26,063 nt of DNA from a virus, in IMG/VR virus record IMGVR_UViG_3300021964_000447, positions 1 to 26,063 of that record; one strand, 5' to 3'. How positions within the stretch are numbered: the first letter of the stretch is position 1; each line of letters begins with the position of its first letter. Shown piece by piece: positions 15,218 through 22,074 of this stretch. A program made the translations under genes and the position numbers. The notes under the pieces are model-generated. The model saw only the letters and a program-made list of their open reading frames with translations. It ran no database searches and was not told where the DNA came from.

Positions 15218-16804
15218 TTAGCCGTTGGGACTTGCCTCACGATAAATTACGTTGCACCGACAGTTGATTGTTTCTTTGGCAGATAGGTTTGGTGCTTTTG
15301 GATATTCGGCTCTCTCTCCACCAACAACAAATAATTCGTTCTGCCCTACAACTTGTCCGTCTGCTTGAATGTGTGTGTCTCTTGAATTGTTGAATTGTGT
15401 CTGCCACTCTTTGACGGTAATCAATCCTGATTTCTGTACTGCGTCATATTGTCCAAATTGTGCCAACGCACCACCTTCTGTTCTTGCAATCGTAGAAGCT
15501 CTACCCATAAACTTTTTCGGTAAGGCGTTCTCGACTTGTCCAGTAATGTACTCATACATTGTGTCTCCACTCAGACCAAGCTCGACTGCTTCGTCAATAC
15601 TTTTTCTGATTGTTCTGTTCAAGGTTGCCTTTGTGGTTTTAGCTAAGTCAGGTAAAACAGAATCGAGTCTCTGATTAACAAACGCAACTGCTTGTCGGTT
15701 GTATCTTGTTCTAGGAATTGGAGACTGGGCAGTCGGAATTATTCCACCACCACGAGTTCGTATTGGATAGAAACCTTCGTTGACTACTTGACTACGATTT
15801 TTCTTCCTAGCCTTGTAATCGTACAAGTCCGTGTCCTCGACTTCGGAATATCCTTTAAGAGTTTCAGGTAAGAGAATACCAAACTGGAATAAGTTAAAGT
15901 CATACACCTCAGATAAGTACACATCATACAAGTCAACCTTCCAATCGTTTGTTGTGTCATCAATTAACTTATTCAGAATCGGTGATTGTCCATTCAAAAT
16001 GGAATTTTTGTACGCACGGTTATCTCTCCCTCGCCTCATACTTCTCGTGATTTTCTGATTCTGACTACGCAACAGACCGAAGAAGTAATCCGTGTACCAC
16101 TTCTCCCAGTTCCGTAACATAGCGTCATAGTTCCGATAGATACCTTGCTTGACTTCTACTGAACTGAGACGATTGTACCTGTACTCTGCTTCCTGTTCTG
16201 TTCTGAGCTTATGTCTCCGTACCAGTTCTGACGCAGTACTCTGTTTCTCATCTCTCTTGTTCATAGCTCTTACTAACTTCTCACTCCACGTCCGTCCACT
16301 ACTGCCACCCCATAGCTTCCACGCTATCCAACCGTTAGTCGCTCTATCAGTTCGTCCTGCTATGTAGTCTCTATGGGCTTGGCTAGTTAAGTCTCCTTCG
16401 TGTCTAGGGAAGTACTTAGCTATGTGCCTTACCTTCTCAGGCGAGGCTTTTGTATTGGAGACAAGATAGCGAGCCGTTGCTAATCCAACGCTTGTACCAC
16501 CTCGACCAAACTTCTTGCGTAGTGCCAGTCCTTGCTCGGCTTGTCTCTTAACTCCTTTAGGTATCGAGAAATTCAGGTCATCGTATTTTCCTTTTTTAAG
16601 GTTTCCGTTTACGCCTGTGTCTATCTCTCCGACCATTTCCAACTCCCCTGTATCAGTATCTAAATTAGACTGAAACTGTATCGTAGACGATACACTAGAA
16701 CTATCCTTACTACTCTCTATCTCTGTATCTACCGTATATGCAGTAGGAGTAGAATTTATTGCGAGGTTTTTATCCTTCAGAGTCATAGGCTTCATTGTTG
16801 TCAA
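15218..16804 (-). CDS. MuF/SPP1 gp7-like head morphogenesis protein with N-terminal extra domain
   Basis: 528 residues. Around 85-190 lies an extra domain, with SIPKGVKRQAEQGLALRKKF and GRGGTSVGLATARYL, then 'KYFPRHEGDLTSQAHRDYIAGR' and WKLWGGSSGRTWSEKL. The MuF domain is in the last ~130 residues: 'GRASTIARTEGGALAQFGQYD' and 'WQTQFNNSRDTHIQADGQVV', ending 'SAKETINCRCNVIYREA'. This minor head protein is packed near the portal. The frame starts with TTG 16804, overlapping the portal by 35 bases; ATG 16795 or 16786 are alternatives, but only TTG has a GAAGG five bases upstream. The N-terminal module is found in other phage head proteins. Confidence 0.88.
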   Translation of the reverse strand: MTTMKPMTLKDKNLAINSTPTAYTVDTEIESSKDSSSVSSTIQFQSNLDTDTGELEMVGEIDTGVNGNLKKGKYDDLNFSIPKGVKRQAEQGLALRKKFGRGGTSVGLATARYLVSNTKASPEKVRHIAKYFPRHEGDLTSQAHRDYIAGRTDRATNGWIAWKLWGGSSGRTWSEKLVRAMNKRDEKQSTASELVRRHKLRTEQEAEYRYNRLSSVEVKQGIYRNYDAMLRNWEKWYTDYFFGLLRSQNQKITRSMRRGRDNRAYKNSILNGQSPILNKLIDDTTNDWKVDLYDVYLSEVYDFNLFQFGILLPETLKGYSEVEDTDLYDYKARKKNRSQVVNEGFYPIRTRGGGIIPTAQSPIPRTRYNRQAVAFVNQRLDSVLPDLAKTTKATLNRTIRKSIDEAVELGLSGDTMYEYITGQVENALPKKFMGRASTIARTEGGALAQFGQYDAVQKSGLITVKEWQTQFNNSRDTHIQADGQVVGQNELFVVGGERAEYPKAPNLSAKETINCRCNVIYREASPNG

Positions 16805-18538: not shown

Positions 18539-19804
18539 TTACAAAACTTTTATACTTTTGCGTACTTTTGATTCTATTACTGCGTATGCCAAAGAGTCAA
18601 CTATGTCGTCATGCTCGGCTTCGGGAAACCTTAGCAACTCTGTTTGTACATCAGCAAACCACGTTGAGTTCTTAGGGAAAAATATGTCGCCTGACTCCAT
18701 ACGAGCTATTAATGGATAAGCACGAGAAATCTTATCTCTGTCAGCTTTAAGCGACTTTACAACCAACCCTTCTCTTTTAGCCATTTGAATAAACGCCAAC
18801 TGGTAACCTGCTCGCTCAATCCCGACATACGCCAAGTCAAACTGTTCCACTTTTCTTTGTAGTAAGGGCAGTAAATCAGGTGCTTCCAATCTTCTTCGGT
18901 CAATGTCCAATATGAGAATCTTGCCTTCAGGTGTGATTGCCACCGAAGTAATAACTGTGAAGTCAGCACTTTGCTTAGTTGAAGTTGCAAGGTCAACAGT
19001 TGCATATCTACGGCAGTCCTCAAGCCTGCACTCTTTATCCTTATATTTGTAAACAATTTCTGTAAATTCGTTTTTATCATTATCAATTCCTATTCTTTCT
19101 TCTATTTTGTAGTGGTCAAACCAATCGGCTTTAAATAAACCACCACTAGCTTCTATAAATTGAGCTTCGTACTCTTGAGCATATAAAAAACTTCCTATTT
19201 CTTGTTTTGCCATTTCTAACTCGGCAGGGTCAATAATTGGGTTTGTTATTGTCGGATATGTAAATCTGACCCAGTCATCAAGCATATTTGCTTCTGAATA
19301 CAATTTCTCAAAAAAGTTATATCCTTTTGGCGTGCTTATAAAAAATGCACTACCTTTTTTTTCTGTTAGGGCAGGTCGGATAACTTCTGCCCAAGTTTGT
19401 GGCTTCATAAAGGCACACTCGTCTAAAACAACAAAGTCAAGACCTGCACCTCTTAATTTCATAGGGTCATCTGCTGACCTTACTTGTACTGAGCCACCAG
19501 TAGCAGTAACTATTGTTCGTTCTGCTTCTTTTACTTTGATACCATATTCGATACCAATACTTCTTAAATCTGCCCACGCTTCATTAGTCATAGAGTAAGA
19601 AGGTGCAATCCACCAAGCTCTCTTGCCTTCCCAAGCGTATTTTAGACAAAGCCAAACGCCTAGTTTAGTTTTACCCCAACGCCTACCTGCTGATAGAACA
19701 GTAAACCTTTTCATATTCTTTACAACTTCCATTTGTGCTGAGTGTAAAGGTGGTAACTGAATATCTAAGCCTGATAAGACATCATTATCTAAAGCTGATT
19801 GCAT
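18539..19804 (-). CDS. Terminase large subunit
   Basis: 421 residues. The ATPase is in the first half: Walker A AGRRWGKTK (Gly40-Thr46), Walker B LDFVVLDE (Asp128, Glu129) and the coupling motif STPKG (157-161). The RNase H-like nuclease is in the second half, with Asp271 in YATVDLATS, Glu330 in AYVGIERAGY and Asp399/400 in AEHDDIVDSLAY as likely metal ligands. It drives DNA packaging and cuts concatemers. Start chosen at ATG 19804, preceded by CAGGAGTAAT. The length is typical. The type (cos or pac) cannot be told. Confidence 0.95.
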   Translation of the reverse strand: MQSALDNDVLSGLDIQLPPLHSAQMEVVKNMKRFTVLSAGRRWGKTKLGVWLCLKYAWEGKRAWWIAPSYSMTNEAWADLRSIGIEYGIKVKEAERTIVTATGGSVQVRSADDPMKLRGAGLDFVVLDECAFMKPQTWAEVIRPALTEKKGSAFFISTPKGYNFFEKLYSEANMLDDWVRFTYPTITNPIIDPAELEMAKQEIGSFLYAQEYEAQFIEASGGLFKADWFDHYKIEERIGIDNDKNEFTEIVYKYKDKECRLEDCRRYATVDLATSTKQSADFTVITSVAITPEGKILILDIDRRRLEAPDLLPLLQRKVEQFDLAYVGIERAGYQLAFIQMAKREGLVVKSLKADRDKISRAYPLIARMESGDIFFPKNSTWFADVQTELLRFPEAEHDDIVDSLAYAVIESKVRKSIKVL

Positions 19805-19805
19805 A

Positions 19806-20048
19806 TTACTCCTGAGTTTTGTACCAAGTAATAAATGTTTCCAATGCTTTTGATGATATTGGAAGTGAACTATACATCAGTCCCATATCTGTAATCATTG
19901 GAATAAATACTACGGCAGGTATTTCAAAATCAACCAACTCCTCAAGAATTGGGTCATCTAAATCTTCATTAATTTCTAATGCGTCAATGTAAAGATTATT
20001 AAATTCTATAATCTCAGCAAACGATTGGTTTATATCTTCATTCTCCAT
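19806..20048 (-). CDS. Small acidic protein between terminase genes
   Basis: 80 residues starting MENEDINQSFAEIIEFNNLY. Very acidic (EINEDLDDPILEELVDFEIP), with one hydrophobic helix region IPAVVFIPMITDMGLMYS that may be buried rather than membrane-spanning. Its start overlaps the small terminase stop by 11 bases and follows AAAAGGATTAGACA; it ends one base before the large terminase start. Wedged between the two terminase subunits, it could be an accessory factor of packaging, but no known family is recognised. Confidence 0.65.
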   Translation of the reverse strand: MENEDINQSFAEIIEFNNLYIDALEINEDLDDPILEELVDFEIPAVVFIPMITDMGLMYSSLPISSKALETFITWYKTQE

Positions 20049-20487
20049 TGTCTAATCCTTTTGGCTCTACTATTTCGCCTTCTATAAATTCTTCTTCTTG
20101 AGCTTTGTCTAGTAAGTTACCGTCTGCCCAACGCAGTCTAACTTGTTGGTTGTCTTGATTTTCAATGGCAACTGTATCTCTTTTACCAAATAAGTGTGGG
20201 TATCTTCGCTCTAAGTACCAAGCGTCTGCTTGCCAAGAGCCACTCTCTCCTGCTTCCTCTATTCTTCTTATCCTACGTTCAATAGCTTTAGCTTCTGCAA
20301 TCTGTATTTTTTTCCATACTTGGTCGTAAGGTGTTATGCCTTGCTGACCTTTTCTTTTCCATTCGTGAAGTGTTGATGTGCCTATGCCTACTGATTGGCA
20401 AGCGAGGTTAACATACATTCCTGTTGCGATTGAATCACAAAGGGCTTGTACTAAGTCGTCATTATGAGCGAGTGTTTCTTTTGGCAT
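20038..20487 (-). CDS. Terminase small subunit
   Basis: 149 residues. The N-terminal helix-turn-helix region runs LVQALCDSIATGMYVNLACQ, then SVGIGTSTLHEWKRKGQQG (~10-50), the typical DNA-binding part of small terminases. A helical region follows with AEAKAIERRIRRIEEAGESGSWQADAWYLERRYPHLFG (oligomerisation, 'W-x-A-x-A-W-x-L-E-R-(R/K)-x-P'), and a short acidic tail. It binds the packaging start and stimulates the large subunit. The large subunit lies downstream, with one small gene between. There is no good Shine-Dalgarno at ATG 20487, so the start is the least certain part. Confidence 0.9.
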   Translation of the reverse strand: MPKETLAHNDDLVQALCDSIATGMYVNLACQSVGIGTSTLHEWKRKGQQGITPYDQVWKKIQIAEAKAIERRIRRIEEAGESGSWQADAWYLERRYPHLFGKRDTVAIENQDNQQVRLRWADGNLLDKAQEEEFIEGEIVEPKGLDNGE

Positions 20488-21054: not shown

Positions 21055-21069
21055 ACTTATATTTAACTA

Positions 21070-21084
21070 TAATCTACGATTATA
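21070..21084 (-). promoter_or_regulatory. Palindromic operator with TATAAT -10, copy 5
   Basis: Minus strand TATAATCGTAGATTA: a consensus -10 box TATAAT (21084-21079) shares bases with the palindrome TAATCGTAGATTA (21082-21070). A TTGCAT element lies immediately upstream. The start ATGAATGAAAC of the 169-residue gene is 16 bases downstream. Confidence 0.7.
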
Positions 21085-21120
21085 TGCAAATTTAGTTAGT
21101 ATTTCTGCAACTAAAAATCC

Positions 21121-21140
21121 CAATGTTTATAGGCTTTTAT
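21121..21140. repeat. 20-base exact repeat, copy 2
   Basis: Same 20 bases as at 8852-8871, in the same orientation. On the minus strand the next bases are GGGATTTTT, which could close a hairpin (AAAAGCC with GGG/TTTT). To the right a run of A/T-only blocks (21141-21180) follows; it holds no gene and could melt easily. Confidence 0.7.
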
Positions 21141-21168
21141 AAATTTTTTTTATTTTTTTTGTAAATTT

Positions 21169-21996
21169 CTACTTTTTTTTCTCTAATTTGCACACAATAC
21201 AGTACAAGAAGTAGTTATGGTCAATGAAGTGATGACCCTTCTCCTCGCATATTAAAGTTGGATTCTCCTGCATTTGTTTCTTTCGAATCTCATCTTTACC
21301 TAGAGCTTCAAACTTACCAAACCATTTGTTGATTGCGTAAGGCGTGATGTCTATGTTGTTCCAATGCTTCTTGTATGCGAGGATTGAGCCTTTAAGCATA
21401 TCAGTTGTGACACCAACCTCAGCTAACTCCTTGCAGACTTTAAACCAACCTGACTTCTCCATTTGACTTCTTGGCTCATATCCAAGTTCATCAACAAAGA
21501 CTCGGTAAAGTGCCTTGCGTTGTTTAAGTACATCTTCATCAATCTTCTTTACTTGTGGCTCGTCCACATATTCTTGTTCTATTGGTTTTAGTTCATTGGT
21601 TATAGTTCTATGTATTGTCTCCGATACTACCCTTGTATCGTCAGCAATACTACCCCTAGTATTATCTACAATACTACTAGATGTAGTAATATCATCTGCG
21701 ACACTAGGTTTGCTTGTAATTAAGAAATACAAGTTAGTTTGCTTAACATTATCCTTGACTCGATTTTGTTTTGTAATAGCACCCAAGTCCAGTAGCTCAT
21801 TAATGAGCTTGTGTGTATTTGCACGACTAACACCTACTCGCTTTGACAAAGTGGTAACACTAGGAAAACAAGAGTTGTCTTTTCTATCAGCATAAGTCCA
21901 CAAGATACAATAAAGATTCTTTGCTCTTGGGCTAATGTCTGCGTCTAAAATCCACTCAGGTATTATTGCAAAATAATTATCTGCTTCTATTTTCAT
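21169..21996 (-). CDS. Helix-turn-helix replication-initiator-like protein
   Basis: 275 residues. The N-terminal domain 'AIIPEWILDADISPRAKNLY' plus 'CFPSVTTLSKRVGVSRANTHKLINELLDLGAI' (about 10-75) is a winged-helix (HTH_36-like) domain found in phage replication initiators. A low-complexity Ser/Thr/Asp linker (about 100-125) follows, coded by iteron-like DNA. The C-terminal domain (~150-250) has EPRSQMEKSGWFKVCKELAE. Near the end CEEKGHHF...YCIVCK is a possible zinc site. ATG 21996 follows ACGGAGAAGA. It would bind the origin and recruit host replication proteins. I cannot name a homologue with certainty. Confidence 0.75.
   Translation of the reverse strand: MKIEADNYFAIIPEWILDADISPRAKNLYCILWTYADRKDNSCFPSVTTLSKRVGVSRANTHKLINELLDLGAITKQNRVKDNVKQTNLYFLITSKPSVADDITTSSSIVDNTRGSIADDTRVVSETIHRTITNELKPIEQEYVDEPQVKKIDEDVLKQRKALYRVFVDELGYEPRSQMEKSGWFKVCKELAEVGVTTDMLKGSILAYKKHWNNIDITPYAINKWFGKFEALGKDEIRKKQMQENPTLICEEKGHHFIDHNYFLYCIVCKLEKKK
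21622..21688. other. Iteron-like repeats within the initiator gene (candidate origin)
   Basis: Three copies of (C)AATACTA or CGATACTA on the plus strand at 21622, 21645 and 21669, spaced 23 and 24 bases. ATACTA-CCCC-TAGTAT is a perfect dyad at 21647-21662, and TACTAC-TAGAT-GTAGTA follows at 21672-21688. They encode the Ser/Asp linker of the initiator. The layout is like lambda O, where origin iterons lie inside the initiator gene. Binding is not shown. Confidence 0.5.
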
Positions 21997-22017: not shown

Positions 22018-22065
22018 GATTATAAGTCTTTGTGAGTCCTATGCGTCTAGGACTCACTTAGACTT
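22018..22065. promoter_or_regulatory. Large hairpin upstream of the initiator gene
   Basis: Arms AAGTCT (22024-22029) and AGACTT (22060-22065), plus GTGAGTCCT (22032-22040) and AGGACTCAC (22049-22057), with TT/TT internal mismatches and an eight-base loop. That is 15 exact base pairs. On the minus strand TATAATCT, a -10-like half of the operator palindrome, follows immediately. No U-tract is present, so a terminator is unlikely; an operator or replication structure fits better. Confidence 0.6.
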
Positions 22066-22074
22066 GTACGTATC

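Follow-up and report, generated by a model that had tools for sequence, protein, structure and literature searches.

Does the gene for a phage replication initiator also contain, in the DNA that codes for the linker of its protein, the origin at which replication starts? This question is raised by IMGVR_UViG_3300021964_000447, a linear IMG/VR virus record with a phage structural gene set aboard, whose whole length of 26,063 bases is referred to here as the window. A preliminary description had placed an origin of the lambda O type within the linker of the initiator encoded by rep, a proposal whose comparative part holds up and whose functional part, activity as an origin, we infer. A lambda-O-like origin carried by the rep linker is well supported by the comparison of sequences, and we consider it very probable that the linker-coding DNA is the origin of replication, where iterons bound by Rep, melting of the adjacent DNA and recruitment of a helicase would lead to theta replication.

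Rep matches Pfam HTH_36 (E 1.4e-12, above the gathering score) and PHROG 270, "replication initiation protein" (3.6e-20), and is distantly similar to O-type initiators, with matches to the lambda-O-like PHROGs 391, 8540, 678 and 345 (3.5e-08 at best, the rest weaker). These PHROG matches are mostly confined to the N-terminal half of the protein, and HTH_36 was found in 26/26 members of the group that were scanned. Pfam RepA_N gave no match in Rep at E <= 0.01, and as for a DnaD-like helicase loader, DnaD_N scored 18 bits, below the Pfam cut-off of 27, and PHROG 186 aligned with residues 1-140 only. No close isolate of this phage group was found, and a scan of genome contigs for a host with the A2 pattern yielded 9 pattern matches and 0 relatives.

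The AlphaFold2 model of Rep (mean pLDDT 68 and pTM 0.37 overall) predicts a protein in three parts, a DNA-binding domain, a disordered linker and a C-terminal domain. The N-terminal domain consists of helices and two strands, with blocks across residues 11-80 at pLDDT 76-90. Residues 98-151 form a Ser/Asp/Thr-rich linker, predicted to be disordered (pLDDT < 50), that runs from the HTH domain to the C-terminal domain, in agreement with the Ser/Asp linker between two domains that had been described. The C-terminal helical domain is presumed to recruit a partner, and the region from C250 to C269, in which C250, C266 and C269 are invariant across 26 sequences, is likely to be a zinc ribbon that would bind zinc. 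A Foldseek comparison of the model with the PDB returned nothing at E <= 0.001. Its top matches were 4pql, 5kbj and 4pt7, whose entry titles name an initiator or a Rep-DNA complex and which we take to be staphylococcal RepA. The fold match is generic, with a Z of 10.3 for 4pql versus 10.5 for the winged helix of riboflavin kinase, and the VIA list of structure matches for Rep consists mostly of generic winged helices.

The preliminary description had counted three 8-base repeats at steps of 23 and 24 bp in the linker-coding DNA. The word common to all three is ATACTAC, at 21624, 21647 and 21671, and the steps are as described, with a mean iteron spacing of 23.5 bp, or about 2.2 helical turns where a value near two had been estimated. 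Extended to 8-mers the copies differ by one base, reading AATACTAC twice and GATACTAC once. On the coding strand the unit is TAGTATYGNNGAYRATAC, and it occurs in four copies rather than three, at steps of 30, 24 and 23 bp (Table 1). Of the dyads described earlier, ATACTACCCCTAGTAT (21647) and TACTACTAGATGTAGTA (21672), both prove exact. Iteron 1 is perfectly dyadic and forms, together with its flanking TA, a 20-bp dyad in which 7/7 arm pairs match; the remaining units are partly dyadic. The half-sites may be paired either about the CCC/GGG stretch, as originally drawn, or about the N6 of TAGTATYGNNGAYRATAC.

Table 1. Coordinates of rep, its putative origin elements and the large terminase gene in the window.
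Feature	Position	Strand	Remarks
Terminase large subunit (terL)	18539-19804		
Replication initiator (rep) gene	21169..21996	minus	275 aa; Pfam HTH_36 and PHROG matches
Codons of the N-terminal winged-helix DNA-binding domain (aa 14-92)	21721..21957	minus	AlphaFold2 model and HTH_36
Iteron 0, degenerate, TAGTGTCGCAGATGATAT	21689..21706	minus	2 mismatches to unit pattern
Iteron 1, TAGTATTGTAGATAATAC	21659..21676	minus	0 mismatches to unit
Iteron 2, TAGTATTGCTGACGATAC	21635..21652	minus	0 mismatches to unit
Iteron 3, TAGTATCGGAGACAATAC	21612..21629	minus	0 mismatches to unit
Block of collapsed synonymous variation, codons 101-155	21532..21696	minus	30 close genes; 41 in the larger set
Tandem 14-mer, GAACTATAACCAAT / GAACTAAAACCAAT	21581..21608	minus	Adjoins iteron 3
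Proposed unwinding region	21571..21611	minus	73% A/T; adjoins iteron 3; putative function
Codons of the C-terminal helical domain (aa 154-253)	21238..21537	minus	AlphaFold2 helices 154-253
Codons C250 to C269, zinc ribbon candidate	21190..21249	minus	Invariant Cys

We tested the repeats by scoring three similar 24-mers placed 20-28 bp apart, with synonymous recoding of codons 86-160 as the null. The best triple in rep scored 53/72, as high a score was reached by 0/2000 recodings (maximum 48), and no higher-scoring triple exists anywhere in the 26 kb window. When TAGTATYGNNGAYRATAC was searched on both strands with at most three mismatches, 10 matches were found versus 1.08 expected, and 0/100 shuffles reached 10. 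Dyad symmetry taken alone was not significant in the window gene, three spaced dyads being equalled by 114/2000 shuffles.

Dyads of the iteron type also occur outside the linker. A perfect 16-bp palindrome, GTATCGTAGACGATAC, at 16678-16693 within the gene 15218-16804, fits the iteron dyad and is a candidate second Rep site, with weaker matches at 16450 and 16855. The exact word GTATCGTAGACGATAC is present in 14/221 loci, several of which are overlapping pieces of one contig. A further such dyad, GTGTCACAACTGATAT, lies at 21398-21413 in the part of rep coding for the C-terminal portion.

Relatives were collected from IMG/VR, 40 at first and then more via terL and via rep; the rep search gave 233 confirmed relatives, 80 of the 233 being among the matches listed. 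From 158 ORF hits we retained 67 genes that were distinct as DNA and no shorter than 225 aa. They sort into five groups, with 39 genes in A, 2 in B, 10 in C, 13 in D and 3 in E, and this set underlies our analyses of synonymous variation, dyad centres, AACYA words and left-arm spacing. A separate alignment of close genes comprises the window and 34 of 40 loci (L035-L040 are partial), and synonymous rates were taken from 30 of its 35 rows, with L001, L015, L017, L032 and L034 left out.

Measured as the fraction of same-residue pairs with different codons, synonymous variation among the 30 close genes is 0.060 at codons 101-150 versus 0.259 in the remainder of the gene. A 50-codon window as low as this was found in 0/5000 column shuffles, and per-codon variation is near zero at codons 151-155 as well. 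The larger set was analysed separately for A+B (n=41), C (n=10) and D (n=13), leaving out the three group E genes. The lowest ten-codon block lies at the linker, with values of 0.006 in A+B, 0.000 in C and 0.010 in D, versus 0.10-0.43, 0.26-0.59 and 0.19-0.49, respectively, in most other blocks. Because related sequences do not give independent pairs, these figures are effect sizes and not probabilities, and the weight of the evidence lies in the recurrence of the dip in separate groups. The collapse in A+B, C and D means that the repeats are maintained as DNA besides being maintained as protein. We judge the signal in the linker to be a real, functional DNA signal.

Conservation of this kind might be sought at the protein level only, as peptide repeats in the Ser/Asp linker, or in an overlapping antisense gene. 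The linker peptide is indeed alike among relatives, yet selection on a protein does not freeze synonymous positions. An antisense ORF does exist in the window (21515-21895, plus strand), spanning most, not all, of codons 34-160, but over those codons every antisense frame is interrupted by at least one stop in 41/41 relatives, and by more in many; we regard this explanation as extremely improbable. Alternatively, the constraint could serve to preserve a fold of the rep transcript. As RNA, the segment from the window gives a better fold than its shuffles do (z -3.65), and so do several relatives, although some RNA folding is expected as a side effect because the DNA sites are palindromic. The predicted folds vary among relatives (z -0.55 to -3.78 in 15 sequences), most of the constrained part beyond the iterons is left unpaired, and the segment has no Rfam match, all of which makes an RNA element very unlikely. 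A packaging (pac/cos) site would suit the neighbourhood of the terminase genes, with rep approximately 0.7 kb upstream of a probable small terminase gene (20038-20487) and approximately 1.4 kb from terL. In L090, L087 and L100 of group C, however, rep lies at least 5 kb from terL and the constraint is still found in the linker, and we give a packaging site hardly any credence.

Loss of the repeats from relatives that keep the protein domains, which the preliminary description had named as an outcome that would refute its proposal, was not seen. All 41 genes of groups A and B (41/41) space their left arms by 24 and 23 bp. At this 24/23 spacing, 39 of the 41 carry three or more sites with no more than four mismatches, and the other two, both of group B, have two sites. 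The fourth site, 30 bp upstream, is present in 18/41 A/B relatives. The group B linker is without a stretch of 10 aa (30 bp), yet the 24/23 spacing of the left arms is retained. Half-sites in groups C, D and E differ from those of A/B and are TGAC/GTCA-like; despite such unlike sequences, half-site or dyad centres recur every ~11.5-12 bp in groups A-E, an observation that is descriptive and made without a null model.

In 66/67 genes the word AACYA is paired with a second AACYA 14 bp away. The codon phases of the pair are (2,1) in A/B and (1,0) in C/D/E, so that the same DNA word codes for different residues and it is the DNA, not the protein alone, that is kept. Since 6-18% of synonymous shuffles per gene contain such a pair by chance, it supports this conclusion rather than proving it. 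Direct repeats taken alone were not significant in the genes sampled, one to three from each of groups C, D and E (400 shuffles per gene), the observed score being matched by 180 shuffles in L090, 56 in L100, 180 in L202, 377 in L191, 184 in L194 and 326 in L209. The case in these groups therefore rests on the synonymous constraint (C and D) together with the shared layout.

The layout invites a broader reading, which we offer tentatively and hold to be possible rather than probable, in which what HTH_36/O-type phage initiators have in common is a spacing code and not a sequence. The sites would be 24 and then 23 bp apart, with half-sites alternating at ~11.75 bp, and a tandem 14-mer whose core is AACYA would come after them. 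Such a code, if it exists, persists in groups that have diverged in the sequence of their iterons, in reading frame and in linker peptide. It would point to an initiation complex of a single, fixed geometry and would allow origins to be read from metagenomes without isolates.

The stretch directly past the iterons is frozen, T-poor and A/C-rich, and occupies the same position as the AT-rich region of lambda, with an A/T content of 73% at 21571-21611 versus 78% in the lambda stretch. It is only mildly unstable, the 50-bp window from 21580 lying at the 13.7th percentile of the record. A melting site here, beside the iterons, is our best reading, rather than one at 21141-21180, the tract that the preliminary description had favoured and had called A/T-only. 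That tract contains 1 G and 2 C. It is locally the weakest 50-bp duplex (49.8 kcal/mol, 0.4th percentile), and it was rejected as the melting region on two grounds: it lies at and past the stop codon, ~430 bp off the iterons, and its sequence is lost near the stop in several of 11 relatives, L018, L020 and L027 among them.

The flanks of rep carry signals of their own. Between rep and the next gene (21055-21168), several relatives have, in the coding direction, CCTATAAACATTGGG-like words followed by T runs, resembling a terminator, and a ATAATCTNNGATTAT-like dyad near the start of the next gene. Just upstream of the rep start, at 22021-22068, lies a 21-bp imperfect inverted repeat (TATAAGTCTTTGTGAGTCCTA / TAGGACTCACTTAGACTTGTA), a possible operator or terminator.

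Replication initiators often autoregulate, and the palindromic sites within rep would suit a dimeric repressor. The iterons could then be an operator only, bound by Rep or another regulator for transcription control, with replication beginning elsewhere. Against this, the sites are more than 280 bp into the coding region, far from the gene start; the tandem 14-mers and the constraint run past the iterons to approximately codon 155, exceeding what an operator needs; and the same layout is a proven origin in lambda. We consider an operator alone improbable, and every rival explanation is inferior to an origin in accounting for both the iterons and the constrained stretch that follows them.

For an origin, the mechanism would begin with Rep dimers that use the N-terminal winged helix to bind the palindromic iterons. 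The nucleoprotein complex so formed would open the adjacent A/C-rich stretch of tandem 14-mers (~21571-21611), the C-terminal domain of Rep would bring in a helicase, probably that of the host, and theta replication would then start. DnaB_C and IstB/DnaC-type genes were each found in 0/8 related records, all eight of which may be fragments, and this is consistent with the use of a host helicase. A minimum of cumulative GC skew at rep had been suggested as a check; the skew runs in one direction, with no turning point at rep, through the window and through G001 and G002, two relatives of ~34 kb (all linear records, possibly fragments), and is for that reason uninformative about the origin.

Lambda offers a detailed parallel. 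In the available portions of two accounts (PMC7466680, PMC6022878), the iterons of ori-lambda also have inverted symmetry and lie in the middle of the initiator gene, in DNA coding for a linker; each is an inverted repeat of 18-19 bp to which a dimer of O binds. A 39-bp AT-rich region lies directly downstream, to the right of the iterons, and a flexible linker joins the two domains of O, which like those proposed for Rep are an N-terminal DNA-binding domain and a C-terminal partner domain (PMC7466680, PMC6022878, as far as available). In the lambda record, four iterons are annotated inside O with starts 20, 24 and 23 bp apart, compared with 30, 24 and 23 bp here, and in the repeat test used above lambda O scores 50 and the window rep 53 (0/400 shuffles in each). 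Unlike in lambda, the iteron sequence here is an unrelated one, a tandem 14-mer stands in place of the 39-bp A-rich tract, Rep has a probable zinc ribbon at its C-terminus, and a DnaC/IstB-type loader was not found in 8 records related to the window. The arrangement itself is thus already known from lambda, and it is well supported that this locus is a new case of a known design and not a new kind of system.

The O proteins of the coliphages mEp021 and mEp554 (mEpimmI group) are distant homologues of the group C initiator L100, that of mEp554 at 30.5% over L100 residues 17-139. The mEp554 O gene has GGGTAGTGTCAGAGAGACACC repeats in the same place as the iterons here and scores 68 in the repeat test (0/400 shuffles). 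In both phages, GGGTAGTGTC...GACACC repeats recur every 22-23 bp and are followed by TATAACCA; the units are near-identical and GC-richer than those described here, and the second AACCA 14 bp on is absent. The terms "iteron" and "origin of replication" are absent from the main text of the mEpimmI paper (PMC11893012).

Origins within initiator genes are also described for plasmids and for P1. According to the available part of PMC5703833, the origin of pSK41, whose initiator is of the RepA_N type, lies centrally in rep, and the hybrid initiator of pPR9 has, like Rep, an HTH_36 (pfam13730) N-terminal domain, which resembles a phage protein. These are plasmid systems, whereas Rep belongs to a phage and has no Pfam RepA_N match at the threshold given above. 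The origin of the P1 RepL/oriL system is thought, according to the abstract, to lie inside repL, where synonymous changes in an A/T-rich stretch impair replication; iterons are not mentioned in that abstract (PMC9948254). In the literature consulted, with most subscription papers beyond reach, neither this phage group nor an in-gene origin of HTH_36 phages was found as such.

From sequence alone, a probable replication origin can thus be placed in a phage group in which our searches turned up no close isolate, and the loss of synonymous variation within an initiator gene is a sharp means of finding such origins. The diverged pairs of initiators and iterons supplied here could help to establish how sites are recognised by the winged helix. 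Two further initiator genes, those of Microbacterium phage Gingerbug (L217:1462-1533; score 45, 3/400) and Arthrobacter phage Bolt007 (L216:1497-1544; score 50, 8/400), likewise have mid-gene repeats of 17-24 bp, which suggests in-gene origins in these two phages as well.
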